From: a virus
Length of the DNA stretch: 32,719 bases
IMG/VR virus record: IMGVR_UViG_3300046001_004299
Location: 1 to 32,719 of that record
Strand: one strand, 5' to 3'
Shown here: in pieces, positions 4,393 to 25,513 of the stretch
Numbering within the stretch: the stretch's first letter is position 1
Layout of the letters: each line of letters begins with the position of its first letter
Notes under the pieces: generated by a model
Databases searched by the model: none
Seen by the model: only the letters and a program-made list of their open reading frames with translations
What the model was told of the DNA's origin: nothing
Translations under genes and position numbers: made by a program

Positions 4393-6147
4393 TTATGCTT
4401 CCTCTGGTGGTGGATCGCCACCTTCGTCGCCACCGGCTGCTAGTCCGTCTTCACCACCGCCTGCTTGTTCTCTATCAGTTAGATCAGGTTTAACTGATAG
4501 AGGATCTAGGTTCTCGTGACTGGGCCAGGGCTCGTGCATGGGTATTCTAAACATAATACTTTCTAAAGGAGTTTCTGTATTATATCTTGCACCTACCCAT
4601 TCGGCTGCTGCTGGATTAATTACAATATTTCCATTAATACCTAATGCTAATGTTGGCGTGGCTGCTGTTGATTTTGTAGCATCAGCTGCATCAGGGGCTG
4701 CAGGACCGTTAAGATTAATGGCTCCGCCAGTAAATGTTAAATTGGCTGCACCCCAACTGCCGTCACCTCCGGCAGTCACCTGCATAGCATCTCCAGATTT
4801 GATATCCATGCTTGTACCGGATTGAATATTAATGTTAGTTCCTGCTTTTATATGAGTATCTAGACTTGACTGAATATAGGTGCTTAGAATACTTTTAAAA
4901 TTATTATTCATTACAGAAGTTATATGATTATCTTTCAACGTAGCAATATGTACTTCACCTTCTGTGGTAATTTTTGTATCGCCTTTGACAAAGAATCTAG
5001 TGTTAGCTTCTGTGTCTACACGAAAGTTTCCGCCGCCGGTTTCGTGTACCGCAGAAGCTTTCATGTTGATATTTCTACCGGCTTCAAAATTAAAATCGCG
5101 ATCGGCATAAAAATTAAAATCTTGTTTAGTGTGAATACTAATACTGTCTTCGGCAAAGATATCAATTTTACCATCACTGGTCATTTCGATCCAACTGGTT
5201 CCTCTACTATTACCTATGTAGATTAAATCTTCACTGGTGTGTAATAATAATTGATGGCCTGTTCTCGTACGCAGTCTAATATATTCATCTGATGGTATTG
5301 TTGGTTCTCCAGCGTCGCCGTCGAGTGTGTCAGCATAATCATAGCCGCCATCTCCGGCAGGTGTTCTACGCTGATAACGATCGTCGCCGTCGTCCATGAC
5401 AAATTGACTACCACCTAGTCTACTCACAGGAACAGGCACCGGACTTTGACTATCTGATTTACCAATAAATGTTTTCTTTGCTCCGTCCCTTCGATCTAAT
5501 GGGCCTGGAGTTGAAATACCATAAACACTACTAGGAACATTCCTACGGCTGGTAGAATATGTTACACCTCTAACATCATCTTCTAATAATCCTTCTTCTA
5601 AAAAATGATCAGCAATGGGATGCACTGCTCGCTTGATTTTATCAATTTCTGTATTTTCTTCAAGAGAGTTAGCACGGCGATTTGCTTCAGCAACTGGCAC
5701 AAATCCAGTATCGTATTTTTCTTGTTCGCCATCAGCAAAAGCCACTGACCTGCTGGCTGCAATACCCGGAACCATGTGATTTGAAAATTTGTCTGGAACA
5801 CAGCCTAACCAATAGCCTTGACTAGGATCACCTTCGATAAAAAATACCAATACTGTATTTCCTACATCGGGCGGTACAAACCAAAAACCGTAACTTTTTT
5901 GTGTGTCGTTAAAATCATCTACATTGGATCCTTGAAATTCAAATGCTGTTTGTCCGGCGAAGGGACTAGCATACCTTACTCCGTAAGTTTGCCCACCATC
6001 ACCAATACTATTACCATCTGGTCTTAAAAGCGTAACTTCTAGCCCGCCCATAAATGTAGGATCTAGGTGACTGATAATTTTAGCAAGATACGGACCTCCG
6101 GAAATGTCGCTGGTTTTATTTGCTGATTCTCTTTTTACTTGTGCCAT
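4393..6147 (-). CDS. 5: Baseplate central spike / hub protein gp5 (no lysozyme domain seen)
   Basis: A 584-residue gp5-like spike protein. The N-terminal ~135 residues look like the gp5 OB-fold: GPYLAKIISHLDPTFMGGLEV, then GGQTYGVRYASPFAG, then PPDVGNTVLVFFIEGDPSQGYWLGCV. From about residue 285 comes RTRTGHQLLLHTSEDLIYIGN, followed by repeated short strands (DIFAEDSISIHTKQDFNFYA and so on). These are typical of the trimeric beta-helix that pierces the outer membrane in gp5 and VgrG proteins. The region between them, about 150 residues, is polar and charged and shows none of the catalytic features of the T4 gp5 lysozyme domain. The C-terminus is an acidic, Gly/Pro-rich tail. AGGA precedes the ATG and lies inside the end of the upstream hub gene. 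Confidence 0.85.
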   Translation of the reverse strand: MAQVKRESANKTSDISGGPYLAKIISHLDPTFMGGLEVTLLRPDGNSIGDGGQTYGVRYASPFAGQTAFEFQGSNVDDFNDTQKSYGFWFVPPDVGNTVLVFFIEGDPSQGYWLGCVPDKFSNHMVPGIAASRSVAFADGEQEKYDTGFVPVAEANRRANSLEENTEIDKIKRAVHPIADHFLEEGLLEDDVRGVTYSTSRRNVPSSVYGISTPGPLDRRDGAKKTFIGKSDSQSPVPVPVSRLGGSQFVMDDGDDRYQRRTPAGDGGYDYADTLDGDAGEPTIPSDEYIRLRTRTGHQLLLHTSEDLIYIGNSRGTSWIEMTSDGKIDIFAEDSISIHTKQDFNFYADRDFNFEAGRNINMKASAVHETGGGNFRVDTEANTRFFVKGDTKITTEGEVHIATLKDNHITSVMNNNFKSILSTYIQSSLDTHIKAGTNINIQSGTSMDIKSGDAMQVTAGGDGSWGAANLTFTGGAINLNGPAAPDAADATKSTAATPTLALGINGNIVINPAAAEWVGARYNTETPLESIMFRIPMHEPWPSHENLDPLSVKPDLTDREQAGGGEDGLAAGGDEGGDPPPEEA

Positions 6148-13641: not shown

Positions 13642-13871
13642 CAACTGAATCTCACGATAAGATGATCCGTGCCTTTCAGGAATATTTCAAATGGCAGGAT
13701 CGTTTTGAGTACAGAGGCAGCGACGAGGCAGGAGTAAAGGCACGGTATTGGCTAAGTGAAATACGCAACGAGGCATCAATTAGGCGAGTAGAAATACAAA
13801 CAAAACGAGACGAACGAAAACAAGCCAGAAAAGGCATGGTAGGAAGGCCCCCCAAGATACATAAGGGATGA
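13638..13871 (+). CDS. Small basic conserved phage protein
   Basis: A frame of 77 residues from a TTG start at 13638 that overlaps the gp46 stop (TTGA). An ATG at 13662 would give 69 residues starting MIRAFQEYFKWQDRFEY. The 3' end overlaps the next gene by ATGA. The protein is helical, Arg/Lys-rich and ends GRPPKIHKG. A small protein of this look follows gp46 in other aquatic T4-like phages as far as I recall, but I know of no assigned function. The GRPPK tail resembles an AT-hook-like minor-groove binding element, which would suit a DNA-binding partner of the gp46/47 complex. That is a guess from one short motif. Coding status is well supported by the two tight overlaps. Confidence 0.7.
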   Translation: MTTESHDKMIRAFQEYFKWQDRFEYRGSDEAGVKARYWLSEIRNEASIRRVEIQTKRDERKQARKGMVGRPPKIHKG

Positions 13872-14302
13872 CATGGTTGTATAAGAAAAAAATCGTTGAA
13901 GAAATCTCAGAAGAGTATATCGGATTCGTATATCTTATTACAAATGTTATCTCTGGACGCAAGTACATAGGCAAAAAACTAGCAAAATTCGCTAAAACAA
14001 CATACAAAACAATCACACTTAAAAACGGCAAGAAGAAGCGAAAGAAGATTAGAGGCAAGATCGAAAGCGACTGGAAGGACTATTATGGTTCTAGCGATGC
14101 GCTAACAGCAGACATACAGGCACTAGGCAAAGAAAACTTCACCAGAGAAATTCTATTTTACTGCACAACTAAATCAGAATGCAGCTACATCGAGGCAAGA
14201 GAACAATTCAAACACAAAGTTCTAGAATCAACTGACTGGTACAACGGTCACATACAGGTTCGAGTTCACGGCTCACACATCCTCAAAAAACCCAAAAAGT
14301 AA
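13868..14302 (+). CDS. GIY-YIG-like nuclease (putative)
   Basis: A 144-residue protein with a GIY-YIG-type core: GFVYLITNVISGRKYIGKK at residues 19-37, in which VYL and KYIG stand for the GIY and YIG halves. Further on come WKDYYGSS near 74-81, GKENFTREIL near 93-102, EAREQF near 115-120 and YNG near 132-134. The spacing of Tyr, Tyr-Ile-Gly, a downstream Glu and a late Asn suits the catalytic layout of Seg/I-TevI-type enzymes. A Lys-rich insertion (LKNGKKKRKKIRGK) interrupts the core. Related free-standing genes occur near gp46 in aquatic T4-like phages. No separate DNA-recognition domain follows, so a homing role is uncertain; a repair or structure-specific nuclease is equally possible. The start overlaps the previous gene by ATGA. 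Confidence 0.65.
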   Translation: MTWLYKKKIVEEISEEYIGFVYLITNVISGRKYIGKKLAKFAKTTYKTITLKNGKKKRKKIRGKIESDWKDYYGSSDALTADIQALGKENFTREILFYCTTKSECSYIEAREQFKHKVLESTDWYNGHIQVRVHGSHILKKPKK

Positions 14303-18727: not shown

Positions 18728-21700
18728 ATGGCAGAAAAAGTAGAAATTGACATTCCGGGCATTGGTTTAATAGAAGCCAAGAATGCCGCCACGGAAGCCA
18801 CCTTGCAGGAAATACTTAAAGTTATGCAAGGTACCCAGAAGGCTGTACAGCAACAAGCCAAAGGAAAGCCCGGATCAAATCAAGGTGGGGGTGGAGGCGG
18901 TGGAAGTGGAGGTAAAGGTGCAGAAGATCAAAATGGATTAGGCAAACGAATTAAGGAAACTGCAAACTCATACAAAGGAATGGGGGGCGCTGCTAAAGTA
19001 GCAGGGACCGGCTTTAAACTAGTAGGGCAATCAGCTCACTTGGCAACATTTGCAATGTCTGGGCTTGCCGCAGGCGCCGGCGCAGCCGCTGGTGCTGTTA
19101 TTAGTCTAGGTAAAAATACATTAGATCTAGGAGCCAAGTTTGCTGACACATTAGAAAGAATGTCCAAAGTTGGCGATAGCACTGAAAGTGCAGCCAGCGC
19201 CTTAAGTATGATACCCGGTGTTGGTGGTGCGCTCAGTGGAGTATTTGGCGCAGTAGCCGGAGCTGTTGAAAAGTCTGTAGCAAGTTATCAAACAGCAGCC
19301 AGTGTAGGTGCAACATTTGGCGGTAGTGTTCAAGCAATGTCAACAGCAGCCGGTGGTGCCGGCATGACACTAGATCAGTTTGCTGGATTGATAAAATCAA
19401 ATGCAGAAAATTTAATCTATCTTGGGGGAACTACTGAAGCGGGAGCAAAACAATTTGCTGGACTGGCTAAAGAACTGCAAGGTAGTGGTGCTGGTGCTGA
19501 ACTACAAAGACTGGGATTTACCACCGAACAAATCAACGGCGGCATGGCCAAGTACATTGGAATACTAGGAAAGACTGGTGCTTTAAGTGGAATGACTACT
19601 AGTCAAATTGCCGCAGCATCTGGCAGTTATCTAAAAGAACTAGACGGTCTGGCAAAAATTACTGGACAAACTAGAGAAGCTAAACAAGCAGAACAAGATG
19701 CATTAATGAAAGATGCACAAGTTCGAGCAGCCATGGCGGGTATGGATGCTGAGTCACAAAAGCAAATGATGAATTACATCACCAGCTTTCCAAAAGAACA
19801 GCAGGCGGCAATCAAAGACATGATTGCCACTGGTAATGTTACCAGTGAAGAAGCTATCAAATTACAAAGTATGTTGCCTGGAGTTGCTGAACAGACCATG
19901 CAGTTTGGCCGAACCATGCAAGCCGGCGGAAAAATCAATGCTGACCAAATGAACTCGGCTAGAAATAATGCTATCAAAGAAGCCAAAGATAGTGTTATGA
20001 GAAACAAAGCTCGAGGTATGTATGATAAAGAATCAGGAGAAGCTTATGTTGGTGCCGCAAATCTTGCTGCAATGGAAATTGATGGCTTAAGCAAAGCTAT
20101 GGGAGAGCAAAGTAAAGCTACAGATAAAGCTAACCTTGCAGAAAATTTAACTAAAGCCAAACAGCGACTTGCAGAATTCAGCAATACATTTCAACAGGCA
20201 TTGGCTAATCCCGCAATGCTTGACATGTTGATGAAGTCATTTGAAACACTGGCAACATTTGTGCAACAGGTTATTGTTCCAGCATTTAATATTTTTGCAC
20301 AGATATTGTCAGCAATAATTCCAGTAGTGACTAATTTGTTGTTGCCTGCATTTAAAGCCTTAGGTGATTTTATGCAGTCTACAATAGTTCCCGGATTCAA
20401 TATCTTAGGAATTTTTGTGCGTGATGCGTTAGTACCGATCTTCAAACAGGCATTCAGTATTGTAAGTAATGTGGTAGGATCATTGTTTGATTTCTTGGGT
20501 ATTGCCAACGACACAGTAGATGGACTTGGATCCTTTGAAGAAACATTATATACTATCAGCGACTTTATTGAAGACAACTTACATGAAGTTTTAATAGGAT
20601 TTGGCGTATTGATGGGTACAGTGCTAGTTGCTAAACTGGTTGCATGGGGTGCAGGAGTATTAGCTAGTTTGGCTCCTCTTGGTAGTTTTGTAATGGGATT
20701 AGCATCGGGCGCACTCGGTCTATTAAAATTGGCGGCACAGTTATTGCTAACAACTGCTGGATTCTTATTAATGAATCTTCCTATTCTTGCGGTTGTCACC
20801 GCGGTTGGCTTGTTAGCATATGGCTTCAAGAAAATGGGCGGAGATTTATCAATACTTGGTGATGCCTTTAAGTGGGCAAAGAGTATGATTGAAACTACAT
20901 TGTTATATTACAAAATGACAATTTTTAAAATATTAGATTTAATTCCAGGAGTAAGTTTCAAGAAAGAAATAGAAGAAGTTGGAAAAGAATTAAAAGCCAA
21001 CGAAGACGAACGAGCAAAGTTAGAACAAGACATGGCTGCAAGAAGGAAAGCAAATCTTCAAGCAGAGGCAGATGCTGAAGCCAAAAAACTTGCAGATGAA
21101 AAAGCAGCTAAAGATGCTGCAATGAATCAAGAAAATGCTGATAAAGCTAAAGCAGCTAAACGAGCCGAAGACAGGGAAGCTCGTAAATCAAGACGCGAGC
21201 AAGATGCAATTAAGAATAAAGAAAATGCTGAACTTAGCGCAATTGATAAAAAAGAAGAAAGAGAAAAAGCCGCAGCAGAAGAAGCCAAAGGTGTTACTGT
21301 AGATAAGAGTGACCCTATTCAGATGCTTAAGACTTTTGCTAATCAGCAAAAATCAGCATTAACACAAGAAGCTAAAGCACTTGACGATAAAGAAAAGGCT
21401 CGTAGTGATCTTGCCCTAGCCAGCCAAGAGATGGCAAAAGCAGTTGAACAGAGTGGAAAAGCTACTAACGATATGGAACGCAAAGCCGCTGCGGAAAGAA
21501 TAAAGGCTGCTGAAGAGAGACTGAGTAAAACTACCAAAGCAAATGAAGCAGCAGATGACACAGTTAACAAAGCCAAAGAAAGAATGGCGTTGGCAAAACA
21601 AGGTAAAGATCCAGGTGCAGTTGCAACAGGTTCTCCTCCTAGCGCAGGAACAACAACTGCAACATCAACTGCAATAGCTACCCCAACAGTTGATAAAGCT

Positions 21701-22915
21701 GCTGTTACTGAAGGAGTTGGAAATCTATATCAACAGACACAAGATGCCATGAACAAAGGTATCAAGTACGGATTTGGATCTAAAGATCTTAAGACAGGAG
21801 CTATTGACTGTTCGGGTTGGATTGCTAATATTAATACCAACATGATGAATTCTATCAACAAGGAAGCTGGTAAAGAAATCTATGGTAAAGAAGCCAAGAA
21901 AGCATTCCAAGGCAGTGCTGCCGACATTATTAAAAATGTATCAGCAGCTGGTGGCGGTATGCTTGAAGGTAGTAAAAATATTAGAGCCAATCTTAAAGAA
22001 GGTATGTTGATTGGTGAAGACAACGGCGAAAAAGGTTGGGACGCTGGTCGTCACAAAGGTATTGATCACATTACTCAAACAGTTAAAGATCCTAAGACTG
22101 GCAAACTAATGATTTCCGAATCACAAGGAGGTAAAGGTGTTACCCTAACAGATCCAGAAGAGTACTTTGCAAAGAAAGAAAAGAAAGGAGTTAAACTGTT
22201 TGGTACTGATATGACAGCAATGGCCAAAGGAGGTGAAGGTAGAACTACCGCACCACCGAGTGCAATGGCAAGCGTTCCTAAACCCGAAGATGCTGCCAAA
22301 GCTAGAACAGACGCAGCCGCAAATGATCCAAGAAGAACTGACAAAACACAAACTCCAGCAACAGCAGCTGAACCTAAGCGTGAAGAAACTCTACAGAGTC
22401 TAATTAGAGACGGCATTACTCCTACTACGATGGCATTCCAAGAATTGATCAATAAAGGAATTAAACCATTTCAATCTGTTATGTCTAGCGGAATACAGAT
22501 AAAGACTCCATTAGGGCAAGTACCTGCTAAAGACAGTCTAAGTCCTGGTGAAGAAATAGTTAAAACAAGAGGAATGTTTGATACAGATGCAAGTAAGTCA
22601 TTTGTGGCAATGGCCAAGAATATGAGCCCTTCTACTTCTTTTGAAACTCCTAAATCTGAAATAATCGCTCAAGCCGAAAAAGCCGCAGCAGAAAAAGCCG
22701 AATTGGAAAAACAGCAAGCCGAATATAGAGAAAAACTCAAACAAGAAGAAGCTATGGCAATGACTGGACCTTCAAGCCAAGAAGGTGCGCTATCCGGGTC
22801 ATCTGACTTAAATACAGCACTAGCTGAATTAATTGCAATTAGCAAGAGAACAGCAGACTTAAACGAAAAACAATTAAGTGTACAAAGCAGCCTAAGCGGC
22901 GACTTGTTTGCTTAA
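18728..22915 (+). CDS. Tape-measure-like tail protein with NlpC/P60-type peptidase domain
   Basis: Started at the ATG at 18728 (MAEKVEIDIPG), the product has 1395 residues. The frame is open further upstream, but that part overlaps gp26 and the promoters. The N-terminus is helical, with a poly-Gly linker near residues 53-65. Residues ~70-180 are Gly/Ala-rich and hydrophobic. A long helical region follows, then a run of hydrophobic segments (~500-705), as in tape-measure proteins that enter the host membrane. A Lys/Glu/Ala-rich coiled coil occupies ~710-920. Near residue 1015 begins a peptidase-like domain with IDCSGWI (Cys1028) and GIDHITQ (His1114), followed by a polar ISESQGG strand, the Cys-His arrangement of NlpC/P60 enzymes. 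It would set tail length and open the murein layer. T4 gp29 has 590 residues and no such domain, so the tape-measure role rests on architecture and on the gp26/gp51 neighbours. Confidence 0.7.
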   Translation: MAEKVEIDIPGIGLIEAKNAATEATLQEILKVMQGTQKAVQQQAKGKPGSNQGGGGGGGSGGKGAEDQNGLGKRIKETANSYKGMGGAAKVAGTGFKLVGQSAHLATFAMSGLAAGAGAAAGAVISLGKNTLDLGAKFADTLERMSKVGDSTESAASALSMIPGVGGALSGVFGAVAGAVEKSVASYQTAASVGATFGGSVQAMSTAAGGAGMTLDQFAGLIKSNAENLIYLGGTTEAGAKQFAGLAKELQGSGAGAELQRLGFTTEQINGGMAKYIGILGKTGALSGMTTSQIAAASGSYLKELDGLAKITGQTREAKQAEQDALMKDAQVRAAMAGMDAESQKQMMNYITSFPKEQQAAIKDMIATGNVTSEEAIKLQSMLPGVAEQTMQFGRTMQAGGKINADQMNSARNNAIKEAKDSVMRNKARGMYDKESGEAYVGAANLAAMEIDGLSKAMGEQSKATDKANLAENLTKAKQRLAEFSNTFQQALANPAMLDMLMKSFETLATFVQQVIVPAFNIFAQILSAIIPVVTNLLLPAFKALGDFMQSTIVPGFNILGIFVRDALVPIFKQAFSIVSNVVGSLFDFLGIANDTVDGLGSFEETLYTISDFIEDNLHEVLIGFGVLMGTVLVAKLVAWGAGVLASLAPLGSFVMGLASGALGLLKLAAQLLLTTAGFLLMNLPILAVVTAVGLLAYGFKKMGGDLSILGDAFKWAKSMIETTLLYYKMTIFKILDLIPGVSFKKEIEEVGKELKANEDERAKLEQDMAARRKANLQAEADAEAKKLADEKAAKDAAMNQENADKAKAAKRAEDREARKSRREQDAIKNKENAELSAIDKKEEREKAAAEEAKGVTVDKSDPIQMLKTFANQQKSALTQEAKALDDKEKARSDLALASQEMAKAVEQSGKATNDMERKAAAERIKAAEERLSKTTKANEAADDTVNKAKERMALAKQGKDPGAVATGSPPSAGTTTATSTAIATPTVDKAAVTEGVGNLYQQTQDAMNKGIKYGFGSKDLKTGAIDCSGWIANINTNMMNSINKEAGKEIYGKEAKKAFQGSAADIIKNVSAAGGGMLEGSKNIRANLKEGMLIGEDNGEKGWDAGRHKGIDHITQTVKDPKTGKLMISESQGGKGVTLTDPEEYFAKKEKKGVKLFGTDMTAMAKGGEGRTTAPPSAMASVPKPEDAAKARTDAAANDPRRTDKTQTPATAAEPKREETLQSLIRDGITPTTMAFQELINKGIKPFQSVMSSGIQIKTPLGQVPAKDSLSPGEEIVKTRGMFDTDASKSFVAMAKNMSPSTSFETPKSEIIAQAEKAAAEKAELEKQQAEYREKLKQEEAMAMTGPSSQEGALSGSSDLNTALAELIAISKRTADLNEKQLSVQSSLSGDLFA

Positions 22916-22931
22916 AAAAATGGAACTATAA

Positions 22932-24635
22932 ATGAGCTGGAAAAAATACTTTACTCCTGTAGATCTTGACAATAGAAAGTCTATGAGCCCAATGGGCAAT
23001 GGCGGTCGCCCAGGTCCTGCACGAGCAAACTACAGTTCGTTCCTACCTGATGTCTATGCTGGCAGTCCGAATCGTGTCGAGCGTTATATGCAATATGACA
23101 CAATGGATATGGATTCAGAAGTGAATGCTGCCTTGGATATCCTTACAGAATTTTGCACACAGAAAGACAAAGAAAACGCTACACCGTTTAACACATTCTT
23201 TCGTGGACAACCAACAGCAACCGAAGTAAAGCTGATCAAAGAAAGCCTACAGAAGTGGACCAAACAACAGCAGTTCGAAACACGCATCTTCCGTATTATT
23301 CGTAACACATTCAAATACGGTGACTGTTTCTTTGTTAGAGATCCAGAAACACAGAAGTGGTTGTATGTTGATGCAGCCAAGGTTACAAAAATTATTGTAA
23401 ACGAAAGTGAAGGTAAAATTCCTGAACAGTATGTTATCCGTGATATTAACTTTAATTTCAAGAACTTAGTAGCAGTAACTCCACACGGTACAACTAACAC
23501 AGCACCTAGCGGCACTAGTTCTTACACAAGTGGCGGCAGTCAAGGTAGAGGAATGGTTGGTGGAGCAGCACAACCTCCGGGTACAAGATTTCATAATCAA
23601 ACTAATGAAGTCACGATTGATGCTAAAAATGTTGTACATATTTCATTAAGCGAAGGCCTAGACAACAACTATCCATTTGGCAACAGCTTGTTAGAAAGTG
23701 TGTTTAAAGTCTACAAACAGAAAGAATTGCTTGAAGATGCGATCATTATCTATCGTATACAACGAGCTCCTGAGCGTAGAATATTCTATGTGGATGTAGG
23801 TAACATGCCAGCACACATGGCCATGGCGTTCGTTGAGCGTGTTAAAAATGAAATCCATCAACGCCGTATTCCTAGCTCAACTGGTGGCGGGCAAAACATG
23901 GTTGATGCTAGCTACAATCCGTTATCTGTATCGGAAGACTACTTCTTTCCGCAGACAGCAGAAGGTCGTGGATCAAAAGTTGAAACTTTACCAGGCGGAA
24001 CTAATCTAGGTGAAATTACAGACTTGCGTTATTTTACCAACAAGCTATTCCGTGCGCTAAGAATACCAGCAGCCTATTTGCCAACAGGCATTGATGAAGC
24101 AGCCAACACTATTGCAGACGGAAAAGTTGGTACTGCATATATCCAAGAACTGCGTTTTAACGAATACTGCAAACGATTACAAAGCAACATTGTAGAAACA
24201 TTTGACTTAGAATTTAAACTTTGGTTACAGAATCAAGGTATCAATATTGACTCAAGTTTGTTTGAGTTGAAGTTTAACACTCCTCAAAACTTTGCCGCTT
24301 ATCGTCAAGCAGAAATGGATACTGCCCGTGCAGCTACATTTGCCACACTGCAAGAATTGCCACACCTGAGCAAGCGTTTTGCACTCAAGCGTTTCTTAGG
24401 ACTCACAGAAGAAGAGATCAAAGAAAACGAACGCCTATGGAGAGAAGAGCAAGGCGACAACCTAGCTGCTCCTATGGATGCTCCAGGAGCTATGCGCTCA
24501 GTAGGCATTACACCGGGCGGCATGGGTGCTGAAGCTCAAGAGCCTGATGCTGATCCAGGCATGGCCGCAGCAGCAGAAGCTGGCGCAGTACCTGCAGAAG
24601 GAGAGGCTGCACCTGCACCCGCTCCAGCAGTCTAA
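22932..24635 (+). CDS. 20: Portal vertex protein gp20
   Basis: A 567-residue portal of the T4 gp20 family. Hallmarks are RVERYMQYDTMDMDSEVNAALDILTEFCT near residues 55-80, IFRIIRNTFKYGDCFF near 118, LLEDAIIIYRIQRAPERRIFYVDVGNMP near 265, NPLSVSEDYFFPQ near 330, and the ITDLRYFTNKLFRALRIPAAYL crown/channel segment near 365. Twelve copies form the DNA entry ring, start prohead assembly and dock the terminase and later the neck. The C-terminal ~50 residues are an Ala/Gly/Pro/Glu-rich tail (ending APAPAPAV) not present in T4. It follows the tape-measure gene by 16 bases, with GGAA before the ATG. Confidence 0.95.
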   Translation: MSWKKYFTPVDLDNRKSMSPMGNGGRPGPARANYSSFLPDVYAGSPNRVERYMQYDTMDMDSEVNAALDILTEFCTQKDKENATPFNTFFRGQPTATEVKLIKESLQKWTKQQQFETRIFRIIRNTFKYGDCFFVRDPETQKWLYVDAAKVTKIIVNESEGKIPEQYVIRDINFNFKNLVAVTPHGTTNTAPSGTSSYTSGGSQGRGMVGGAAQPPGTRFHNQTNEVTIDAKNVVHISLSEGLDNNYPFGNSLLESVFKVYKQKELLEDAIIIYRIQRAPERRIFYVDVGNMPAHMAMAFVERVKNEIHQRRIPSSTGGGQNMVDASYNPLSVSEDYFFPQTAEGRGSKVETLPGGTNLGEITDLRYFTNKLFRALRIPAAYLPTGIDEAANTIADGKVGTAYIQELRFNEYCKRLQSNIVETFDLEFKLWLQNQGINIDSSLFELKFNTPQNFAAYRQAEMDTARAATFATLQELPHLSKRFALKRFLGLTEEEIKENERLWREEQGDNLAAPMDAPGAMRSVGITPGGMGAEAQEPDADPGMAAAAEAGAVPAEGEAAPAPAPAV

Positions 24636-24651: not shown

Positions 24652-24900
24652 ATGCTTTTAAGAGAGTTTTTTTATTTTAATGACAATCACAACGATTTTG
24701 CCAATGATCGTCGCTATGATGCCTCTCGCGACAAATCTGTATTAGAAAAGGACGATACTCGTAAGATCAAACTTACACTTCGTCAAATCAACCAGCTAAG
24801 ACATCAAACCGAAGCGCATGAGTTTGAAACAGAGTCCGAGCGCGGTTTTATTAAACAGATGTATGGTACAAAAGTTGAAGCAGAACAACCAGCCGCATAA
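24652..24900 (+). CDS. Small conserved head-cluster protein (gp67/gp68 position)
   Basis: An 82-residue protein from the ATG at 24652 (MLLREFFYFNDN). Longer frames begin inside the portal gene out of frame and are less likely. It is highly charged, with DDTRKIKLTLRQINQLRHQTEAHEFETESE.GFIKQMYG, probably all helical. Its position right after gp20 matches T4 genes 67 and 68, which encode small prohead-core proteins. I recall similar proteins at this spot in aquatic T4-like phages, usually left unnamed. The identification as a core protein is from position only. There is no clear Shine-Dalgarno sequence, and a late promoter lies immediately upstream. Confidence 0.75.
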   Translation: MLLREFFYFNDNHNDFANDRRYDASRDKSVLEKDDTRKIKLTLRQINQLRHQTEAHEFETESERGFIKQMYGTKVEAEQPAA

Positions 24901-25513
24901 TGTTGCCTTTGTATTAGGCAACGGAACAAGCAGAAAAAACCTAAACCTAAACGAAATAAAAAATCGTGGAACTGTCTATGGGTGCAATGCCCTATACAGA
25001 GAGTTTGAACCCGATTATTTAATTGCTGTTGATACCAAAATGGTCAATGAAATTATTGCCGCAGGCTACCATAAAGATCATCAAGTTTGGACAAACCCCA
25101 ACAAAGGCATTACCAGCAAGAGCCATGTAAACTTCTTTAGCCCGCACAAGGGTTGGAGTAGCGGCCCTACAGCATTATGGTTTGCCTGTCAACAAGCATA
25201 TTCACAAATTTACATCTTTGGATTTGACTATCAAGGGCTAGAAGGCAAGTTTAATAATGTGTATGCAGATACTTTTAACTACAAAAAGAGTAATGACGCT
25301 GCAACATTCTTTGGCAACTGGTTGAGCCAAACAGAAAAAACTGTTAAAGAATTCAAGAATATAAACTTCTTTAGAGTGATGGAGCCAGGACAATTTGTTC
25401 CAGACAAGCTACAAGGCATTCCCAACCTTCAGCACATCACCTACGACAACTTTGAACAAAAGTTCAAGGGTAGTACTTATACTACCGAAAATCATCAAAA
25501 AACTATCATTTAA
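24863..25513 (+). CDS. Glycosyltransferase/DUF115-like protein inserted in head cluster
   Basis: Started at the ATG at 24863, the product has 216 residues. An ATG at 24818 in the same frame is possible, but both overlap the preceding gene. The conserved part starts near residue 13 with NVAFVLGNGTSRKNL, then GTVYGCNALYREFEPDYLIAVDTKM, and near residue 105 SSGPTALWFACQQAYSQIYIFGFDYQG. The order of a GNG(T/P)S loop, a (G)CN(A/R)(L/F)Y strand, D(Y)(L/Y)(I/V)A.D, and a G..A...A.......I.(I/L).GFD helix-strand is that of the Rossmann-like DUF115 / GT42-sialyltransferase-type superfamily. It has no T4 counterpart at this place. It might modify virion proteins or host surface sugars. The substrate cannot be read from the sequence. 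Confidence 0.65.
   Translation: MVQKLKQNNQPHNVAFVLGNGTSRKNLNLNEIKNRGTVYGCNALYREFEPDYLIAVDTKMVNEIIAAGYHKDHQVWTNPNKGITSKSHVNFFSPHKGWSSGPTALWFACQQAYSQIYIFGFDYQGLEGKFNNVYADTFNYKKSNDAATFFGNWLSQTEKTVKEFKNINFFRVMEPGQFVPDKLQGIPNLQHITYDNFEQKFKGSTYTTENHQKTII

Follow-up and report, generated by a model that had tools for sequence, protein, structure and literature searches.

An NlpC/P60-like domain in an apparently exchangeable slot of the predicted tape measure protein of a jumbo T4-like phage

Introduction

The locus studied here raises the question of whether the tape measure protein of a large T4-like phage can carry an enzyme for opening the bacterial cell wall and, if so, whether that enzyme is a fixed or an exchangeable part of the protein. 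In T4 the gp5 spike carries a tail lysozyme, and we know of no wall enzyme of this kind in the T4 tape measure, gp29. An earlier note, made from the DNA sequence alone, proposed that a predicted tape measure contains a peptidase-like domain with the Cys-His layout of NlpC/P60 proteins.

There is precedent for such an arrangement in other phages. According to the available text of Piuri and Hatfull 2006 (PMC1796659), TM4-type mycobacteriophage tape measures contain motifs 1, 2 and 3, which vary between phages and resemble small host proteins, and motif 3 of the TM4 protein hydrolyses peptidoglycan and aids infection of stationary-phase cells. The accessible part of a jumbo-phage survey describes NlpC/P60 proteins as sometimes tail-associated (PMC7824862).

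Results

The predicted tape measure gene and its phage

The window, i.e. the whole stretch of 32,719 nucleotides that was analysed (IMG/VR record IMGVR_UViG_3300046001_004299), contains a plus-strand ORF at 18728-22915 which, translated from the ATG at 18728, encodes a predicted tape measure protein of 1395 residues. Its end is separated by 16 bases from the start of a gp20-like portal protein gene (22932-24635, plus strand; phrog_213, E 7e-109), and the T4-like neighbours comprise, with the portal, a baseplate wedge, a gp5-like spike, a late sigma factor, SbcC/SbcD-like subunits, a head protease and the major head protein. Judged by the major capsid protein, the closest named relatives of the window are jumbo phages, i.e. 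Sinorhizobium phage Phosso (71.6% identity) and Vibrio phage 2.275.O (69.7%), with GAP32 at 66.9% and PA5oct and Paride at 66.5%; by these sequence comparisons the window phage is a jumbo T4-like phage, not a close relative of T4.

An HMM of the tape measure backbone matches the proteins next to the portal in Phosso (E 1e-26), GAP32 (4e-20), Vibrio phage 2.275.O (4e-13) and PA5oct (2e-10), the other seven of the 11 proteins tested giving E values of at least 0.097 or no match. The Vibrio homologue is NVP2275O_437; its neighbour in numbering, NVP2275O_438, was considered as the tape measure and ruled out by the same HMM. The record of the PA5oct homologue lists its detection by mass spectrometry, and the name 'tape measure' is absent for the homologue in the inspected stretches of the Phosso, GAP32, Vibrio 2.275.O and PA5oct records. 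From the size of the 1395-residue protein, its position ahead of the portal gene and its homologous virion proteins, we infer that it is the tape measure. Its conserved parts include a backbone region at residues 150-515 (19175-20272, plus strand) and a C-terminal tail, DLNTALAELIAI...SGDLFA (22805-22912, plus strand).

Two other plus-strand ORFs of the window merit a remark. That between the portal and head protease genes (24818-25513) weakly matches a sialyltransferase-like PHROG (E 0.004). The best PHROG for that at 13868-14302 is labelled NAD synthetase, its other matches being homing endonucleases, and a GIY-YIG-like motif is visible by eye at the N terminus of its product, which is probably a mislabelled endonuclease.

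The Cys-His domain and its sequence family

In the ORF translation, Cys1028 and His1114 lie where the earlier note had put them. Cys1028, the predicted nucleophile (21809-21811, plus strand), is within the sequence IDCSGW (residues 1026-1031), and His1114, the predicted general base (22067-22069, plus strand), is the first residue of HITQTV; they are followed by Ser1130-Glu1131 (22115-22120, plus strand), either residue of which may supply the third catalytic position. The proposed domain is present, as judged from a family alignment, an AlphaFold model and structural matches; its span, however, had been given as 21770-22200 and is larger, i.e. residues ~985-1170 (~21680-22237, plus strand). 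By eye, the sequence ahead of it does contain hydrophobic stretches and others that are highly charged and coil-like.

Neither the domain nor the whole protein was identified by searches of Pfam (E up to 10), PHROGs, NCBIfam and PDB sequences, and tblastn with the whole protein, the domain and one bacterial member of the family gave no match in 50,697 phage records. A first contig scan, with uninformative peptides, returned 140 stretches, none of which was confirmed. The first match outside phages, and the sole one when the whole plasmid collection was searched by tblastn, was a 181-residue hypothetical protein on a Paraburkholderia sprentiae plasmid (33.6%, E 5e-11). A genome scan with the Paraburkholderia protein in the alignment yielded 22 bacterial loci, from Caballeronia, Paraburkholderia, Robbsia, Methylobacterium and a Rhodospirillales MAG (L023-L044); Paraburkholderia nodosa and Methylobacterium indicum contribute two loci each, so that a genome can hold more than one copy. 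These members are stand-alone orphan proteins of ~180-200 residues with an invariant Cys-His-Glu set; inspection by eye of nine of the loci revealed no common neighbour gene.

The bacterial proteins make up 22 of the 24 rows of the family alignment and are only 24-31% identical to the window domain. Asp-Cys-Ser-Gly-Trp, His1114, Gln1117 and Ser1130-Glu1131 are invariant across all 24 rows, as they are in a 20-row alignment that includes two additional viral carriers, L048 and L049. The existence of a homologous family that keeps the Cys, His and Ser-Glu residues rules out a chance motif match.

The L048 carrier is a protein of 1060 residues (L048:3646-6825), in which a stretch with SLT similarity below the Pfam cut-offs (E 5e-4 and 1e-3) is present besides the NlpC/P60-like domain. 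In L049 the carrier is a short ORF ahead of a portal-sized one, and is broken into two overlapping frames (L049:4112-6645); over its final ~33 residues the 639-residue ORF reads the NlpC/P60-like domain out of frame, which places a one-base shift, real or an error, near 5930.

No match to PF00877 was obtained for any of the 24 members (E up to 1), or for the window protein (E up to 10), and we therefore class the domain as NlpC/P60-like and not as a member of PF00877. When profiles of the family and of five PF00877 members were compared, the probability was 2.65%, with only 25 columns, around DCSG, aligned. By these sequence searches the family is new, in that it is not named by Pfam, NCBIfam or PHROGs.

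Predicted fold and active site

AlphaFold models were obtained for the window domain (pLDDT 81.9, pTM 0.82; poor at model residues 31-40, ahead of the Cys) and for the L048 domain, the latter model being the better (pLDDT 90.0, pTM 0.87). Both have a papain-like alpha+beta fold in the circularly arranged NlpC/P60 topology, i.e. the outcome that the earlier note had proposed to look for by structure prediction. When the structures on the Foldseek list were compared using VIA-align, the window model aligned with 7v6t, a 'bacterial peptidase' (Z 13.0, 2.4 A, 130 aligned residues), and with Escherichia coli MepS (8xup, Z 12.5); most of the top rows are NlpC/P60 entries, with the T6SS amidase Tse1 at Z 8.6. 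The L048 model aligned with 7cfl and 7v6t at Z 13.8 and with MepS (8xud) at Z 13.5. CHAP structures, considered as an alternative assignment, rank lower (Z about 5 to 7 versus 12 to 14), and CHAP was rejected. By Foldseek E value, the best PDB match of the window model is MepS at 8e-3, with none below 0.001, and MepS is matched by the L048 model at 1e-3. A search of viral models ranked a 751-residue 'hydrolase' from Myoviridae sp. ctBDS4 first (E 4e-8) and placed a putative Corynebacterium phage P1201 tape measure fifth (E 0.011).

In the window model, Cys1028 opens the helix at model residues 44-63 and His1114 opens the strand at 130-136, which is the next core strand but one after the Cys helix, a layout as in NlpC/P60 enzymes. 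The usual third catalytic residue of the latter is a His, Asn or Gln; the invariant Ser1130-Glu1131 of the window family lies at roughly the corresponding position. With Z scores of 12-14 for two models against many NlpC/P60 structures, the Cys-His layout that had been read from the sequence is borne out, and the assignment of an NlpC/P60 fold is supported at the level of predicted models. Catalysis on peptidoglycan is predicted, the bond cut probably being one in the stem peptide or a cross-link.

Comparison with MepS/Spr (PF00877) brings out both likenesses and differences. The predicted fold, the DCSG Cys at a helix start and the His on the strands that follow are shared. By contrast with PF00877, the window family has no profile match, a Trp after DCSG, apparently Ser-Glu in place of the usual third His and a helical insertion between the Cys and the His.

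A slot with different enzymes

The domain lies between stretches that are conserved among tape measures of the lineage. A motif, VDKSDPIQML (residues 858-867; 21299-21328, plus strand), is located upstream; the upstream anchor of the slot itself is AKQGKDPGAV (residues 956-965; 21593-21622, plus strand), found as AK[AQ]GKD[PT]G in 7 of the 8 relatives examined, the window included. The downstream anchor, KARTDAAANDPRRTD (residues 1191-1205; 22298-22342, plus strand), is likewise found in 6 of those 8, its DPRRTD being present whether the cassette ahead of it is NlpC/P60, SLT or GH19.

Nine relatives of the whole protein were found in IMG/VR, and further ones by profile. The slot holds the same NlpC/P60-like domain as in the window in L001, L002 and L005, SLT in L003, L004 and L007 (PF01464, E 1e-9), GH19 in L006 and L009 (PF00182, E 5e-9) and also in L017, and a VgrG3-like domain in L008 (PF21277, E 5e-63), and also in L018 and L019; GH24 is found in the slot of L144 (PF00959, E 4e-14) and VanY in that of L148 (PF02557, E 4e-7). 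A weak match of 104 residues in L021 was dropped as unrelated.

A scan based on the portal was used for a wider sample, in which the best 80 of at least 592 relatives gave 77 upstream ORFs, and the last 1000 residues of the 56 non-redundant ones of at least 450 residues were searched with Pfam. In this sample VgrG3-like domains were found in six tape measures, SLT in three, GH19 in three, Phage_lysozyme in one and VanY in one, with one matching member each for GH46 and PF06737; taking local HMMs and Pfam together, 14 distinct proteins of the 56 carry an enzyme. The remaining 42 of the 56 tape measures from the best 80 relatives lack a Pfam match to a wall enzyme, and by this sequence criterion a tape measure enzyme is not required in every relative. 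Among 88 tape measure sequences, duplicates included, the HMM of the window family matches only those of the window and L001. In the C-terminal part of the L192 tape measure (L192:1549-4218) a degenerate, M23-peptidase-like stretch (GSPVTGTILSAGNGRVEIYDP...) is discernible by eye, without a Pfam match.

The other occupants of the slot bear on what the window domain does. It may be that the NlpC/P60 fold is retained without hydrolase activity, as a substrate-binding or structural relic like RipD; the canonical third His is apparently missing, and non-catalytic RipD (4lj1, by title) is among the matches of the L048 model. However, the Cys, His, Gln and Ser-Glu residues are invariant across distant viral and bacterial members, and the other slot occupants belong to families named for wall hydrolysis, so that a relic is considered unlikely. 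A papain-fold enzyme acting after entry on another substrate, such as a lipid amide or a protein of the host periplasm, is also conceivable, since the NlpC/P60 superfamily, in the available text of PMC10194240, includes amidase and acyltransferase activities; further, no signal peptide was seen by eye in the bacterial members, and two family members score weakly with PF05708 (E 0.08). That NlpC/P60 wall enzymes, of MepS and autolysin type, are the nearest structures, and that the slot mates are wall enzymes, makes this reading distinctly improbable. The preferred reading of the domain remains a hydrolase that would act on peptidoglycan.

Evidence for cassette exchange

Pairwise comparisons reveal that identity breaks down at the slot. 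The window protein and that of L003 (SLT) have 85% identity across residues 1-480, 74% for the coil ahead of the slot and 71% behind it, versus 22% by forced alignment within it; the same four regions of L007 (SLT) and L009 (GH19) give 82%, 49% and 57%, with 25% for the slot. The converse is seen with pairs of like class: the SLT-bearing L003 and L007 share 95% of slot residues but 29% of those in the middle region just upstream, and for the GH19-bearing L006 and L009 the values are 96% and 33%, respectively. In L144 (GH24) and L148 (VanY), unrelated domains lie between near-identical flanks: one flank window matches at 50 of 50 residues and the C terminus at 24 of 27.

High identity within the slot may also reflect constraint, and a tree of the backbone is therefore the stronger evidence. 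The tree was made from residues 150-515, excluding the slot, and has 25 rows, eight of them enzyme-free and picked by hand; left out were L191, for its long branch, L173, as a near copy, and three sequences whose backbone is absent or short (L144, L146 and L156). The window groups with L004 (SLT; 100/96) and then with L003 (SLT; 99/98), apart from L001, which has the NlpC/P60-like domain. On the 17 enzyme-bearing rows, of five classes, nine class changes are counted, the minimum being four; on all 25 rows, with six states, there are 12 changes against a minimum of five and a shuffled mean of 14.9, a count as low occurring in 3 of 200 shuffles. The class labels on the tree are mixed yet somewhat clustered, not random.

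Identity at four-fold degenerate sites is near 50% in most pairs and gives no dates for the exchanges. The pair that stands out is L003-L004 (slot 82% versus 56%), with values slightly higher in the slot for L003-L007 (54 versus 38) and L006-L009 (68 versus 49).

It can be asked whether chimeric metagenome assembly has produced this pattern, in that the evidence comes from uncultured IMG/VR contigs, many of them fragmentary, but such an artefact can hardly be the explanation, given that the NlpC/P60 combination is found again in contigs named from three other samples, that L018 and L019 are nearly the same although they come from two samples, that the frame and both anchors run on across differing cassettes and that the pattern is seen in many separate pairs. 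Cassette exchange between lineages of jumbo T4-like phages is, at the sequence level, well supported.

The gp5 spike

The gp5-like spike of the window (4393-6147, minus strand) has an OB fold and a beta-helix-like part without a lysozyme domain, as judged by Pfam and HMM searches; its OB domain matches PF04717, a DUF2345 match is below the cut-off, and its C-terminal region has VgrG/gp5-like similarity. A lysozyme HMM found no match in this protein or in the best 80 of 505 gp5 relatives, 78 of which have a gp5 length, counted from the match start, of 480-599 residues. GAP32 and Vibrio phage 2.275.O have a C-terminal lysozyme on gp5; as the HMM was built from these two and L144, its two positives are no independent control. 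No lysozyme was found in the 1044-residue gp5 of Phosso. PA5oct has a 476-residue gp5 without a lysozyme and a tape measure without a recognised enzyme.

Annotation of these spikes is not uniform, in that the PA5oct gp5 (L055:6290-7723) is named 'tail lysozyme', though a lysozyme domain was not found in its 476 residues, and the gp5 of Paride (OR805295) bears the same name.

A lineage-wide replacement of the gp5 lysozyme by a tape measure enzyme is ruled out by the 42 tape measures of 56 without a recognised enzyme (from the best 80 of at least 592 relatives) and by PA5oct, in which neither was found. Phages with such tape measures also tend towards a short gp5; since these phages combine a short gp5 with a tape measure in which an enzyme is evidently not needed, compensation for gp5 is only a suggestion. 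A move of the enzyme from spike to tape measure would agree with what is seen in the window, but does not hold in general.

Discussion

Taken as a whole, the evidence makes it likely that residues ~985-1170 of the window protein form a papain-fold domain of NlpC/P60-like type whose active site is predicted to comprise Cys1028, His1114 and either Glu1131 or Ser1130, and that this domain occupies an exchangeable slot in the C-terminal third of a jumbo T4-like tape measure and would open the wall at entry. Contraction of the sheath would drive the tube through the outer membrane, after which the tape measure would exit through the tube; the cassette could then open the peptidoglycan locally, so letting the DNA pass. 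This proposed sequence of release and cutting follows the TM4 tape measure precedent, and in it the window cassette would stand in for the gp5 lysozyme of T4 and RaK2-type jumbo phages.

As in TM4, insofar as the available text of that work describes it, the window tape measure holds a domain of wall-hydrolase type in one ORF with its backbone. The TM4 group are, however, mycobacterial siphophages, whereas the window belongs to a contractile, jumbo T4-like lineage, with homologous flanks around a single slot for six enzyme classes, and with an unnamed NlpC/P60-like family. RaK2 gp078, as described in the accessible text of PMC3622015, is an 886-residue protein with a C-terminal lysozyme; like it and T4 gp5, the window domain appears to be an enzyme of the virion that would attack the wall at entry. 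The T4 and RaK2 enzymes are on the spike, by contrast with the window, where the tape measure carries the predicted enzyme and a lysozyme was not found in gp5.

In enterococcal siphovirus and myovirus tape measures a lytic transglycosylase (LT) domain is present at the C-terminal end, and the survey, in its accessible text, says that lysins of other types were not observed in these proteins (PMC10194240). By that account, enterococcal tape measures carry LT only, whereas several classes alternate in the window lineage. Smug et al. 2023 found tape measures to be mosaic by sequence and did not confirm genuine, recently emerged mosaicism, according to the accessible part of their report (PMC10684548); pairs in the window lineage are candidates, undated, for the tape measure mosaicism that they could not confirm. 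The tape measure slot was not described in the papers that searches of an open-access library listed, most subscription papers lying outside that library. That tape measures can have wall-degrading domains is already known from TM4; what is new is the NlpC/P60-like family and the exchange of cassettes in jumbo T4-like phages.

A broader proposal, which we put forward tentatively and regard as somewhat doubtful, is that the tape measure is a plug-in platform, in which a fixed scaffold has one slot for at least six unrelated, host-matched classes of wall enzyme, recombined at conserved flanks, and acting after or instead of the gp5 lysozyme. If so, the class of enzyme would track the wall chemistry or growth state of the host, and the present results make it testable whether tape measure enzyme class tracks the host wall or growth state.

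The results provide clear examples of the replacement of an enzyme domain within tape measures, and add an NlpC/P60-like family whose members in Burkholderiaceae and Methylobacterium are orphans. They point to a possible way through the wall for large T4-like phages that lack a gp5 lysozyme, and suggest that phages of this lineage swap entry tools through exchange of one module.
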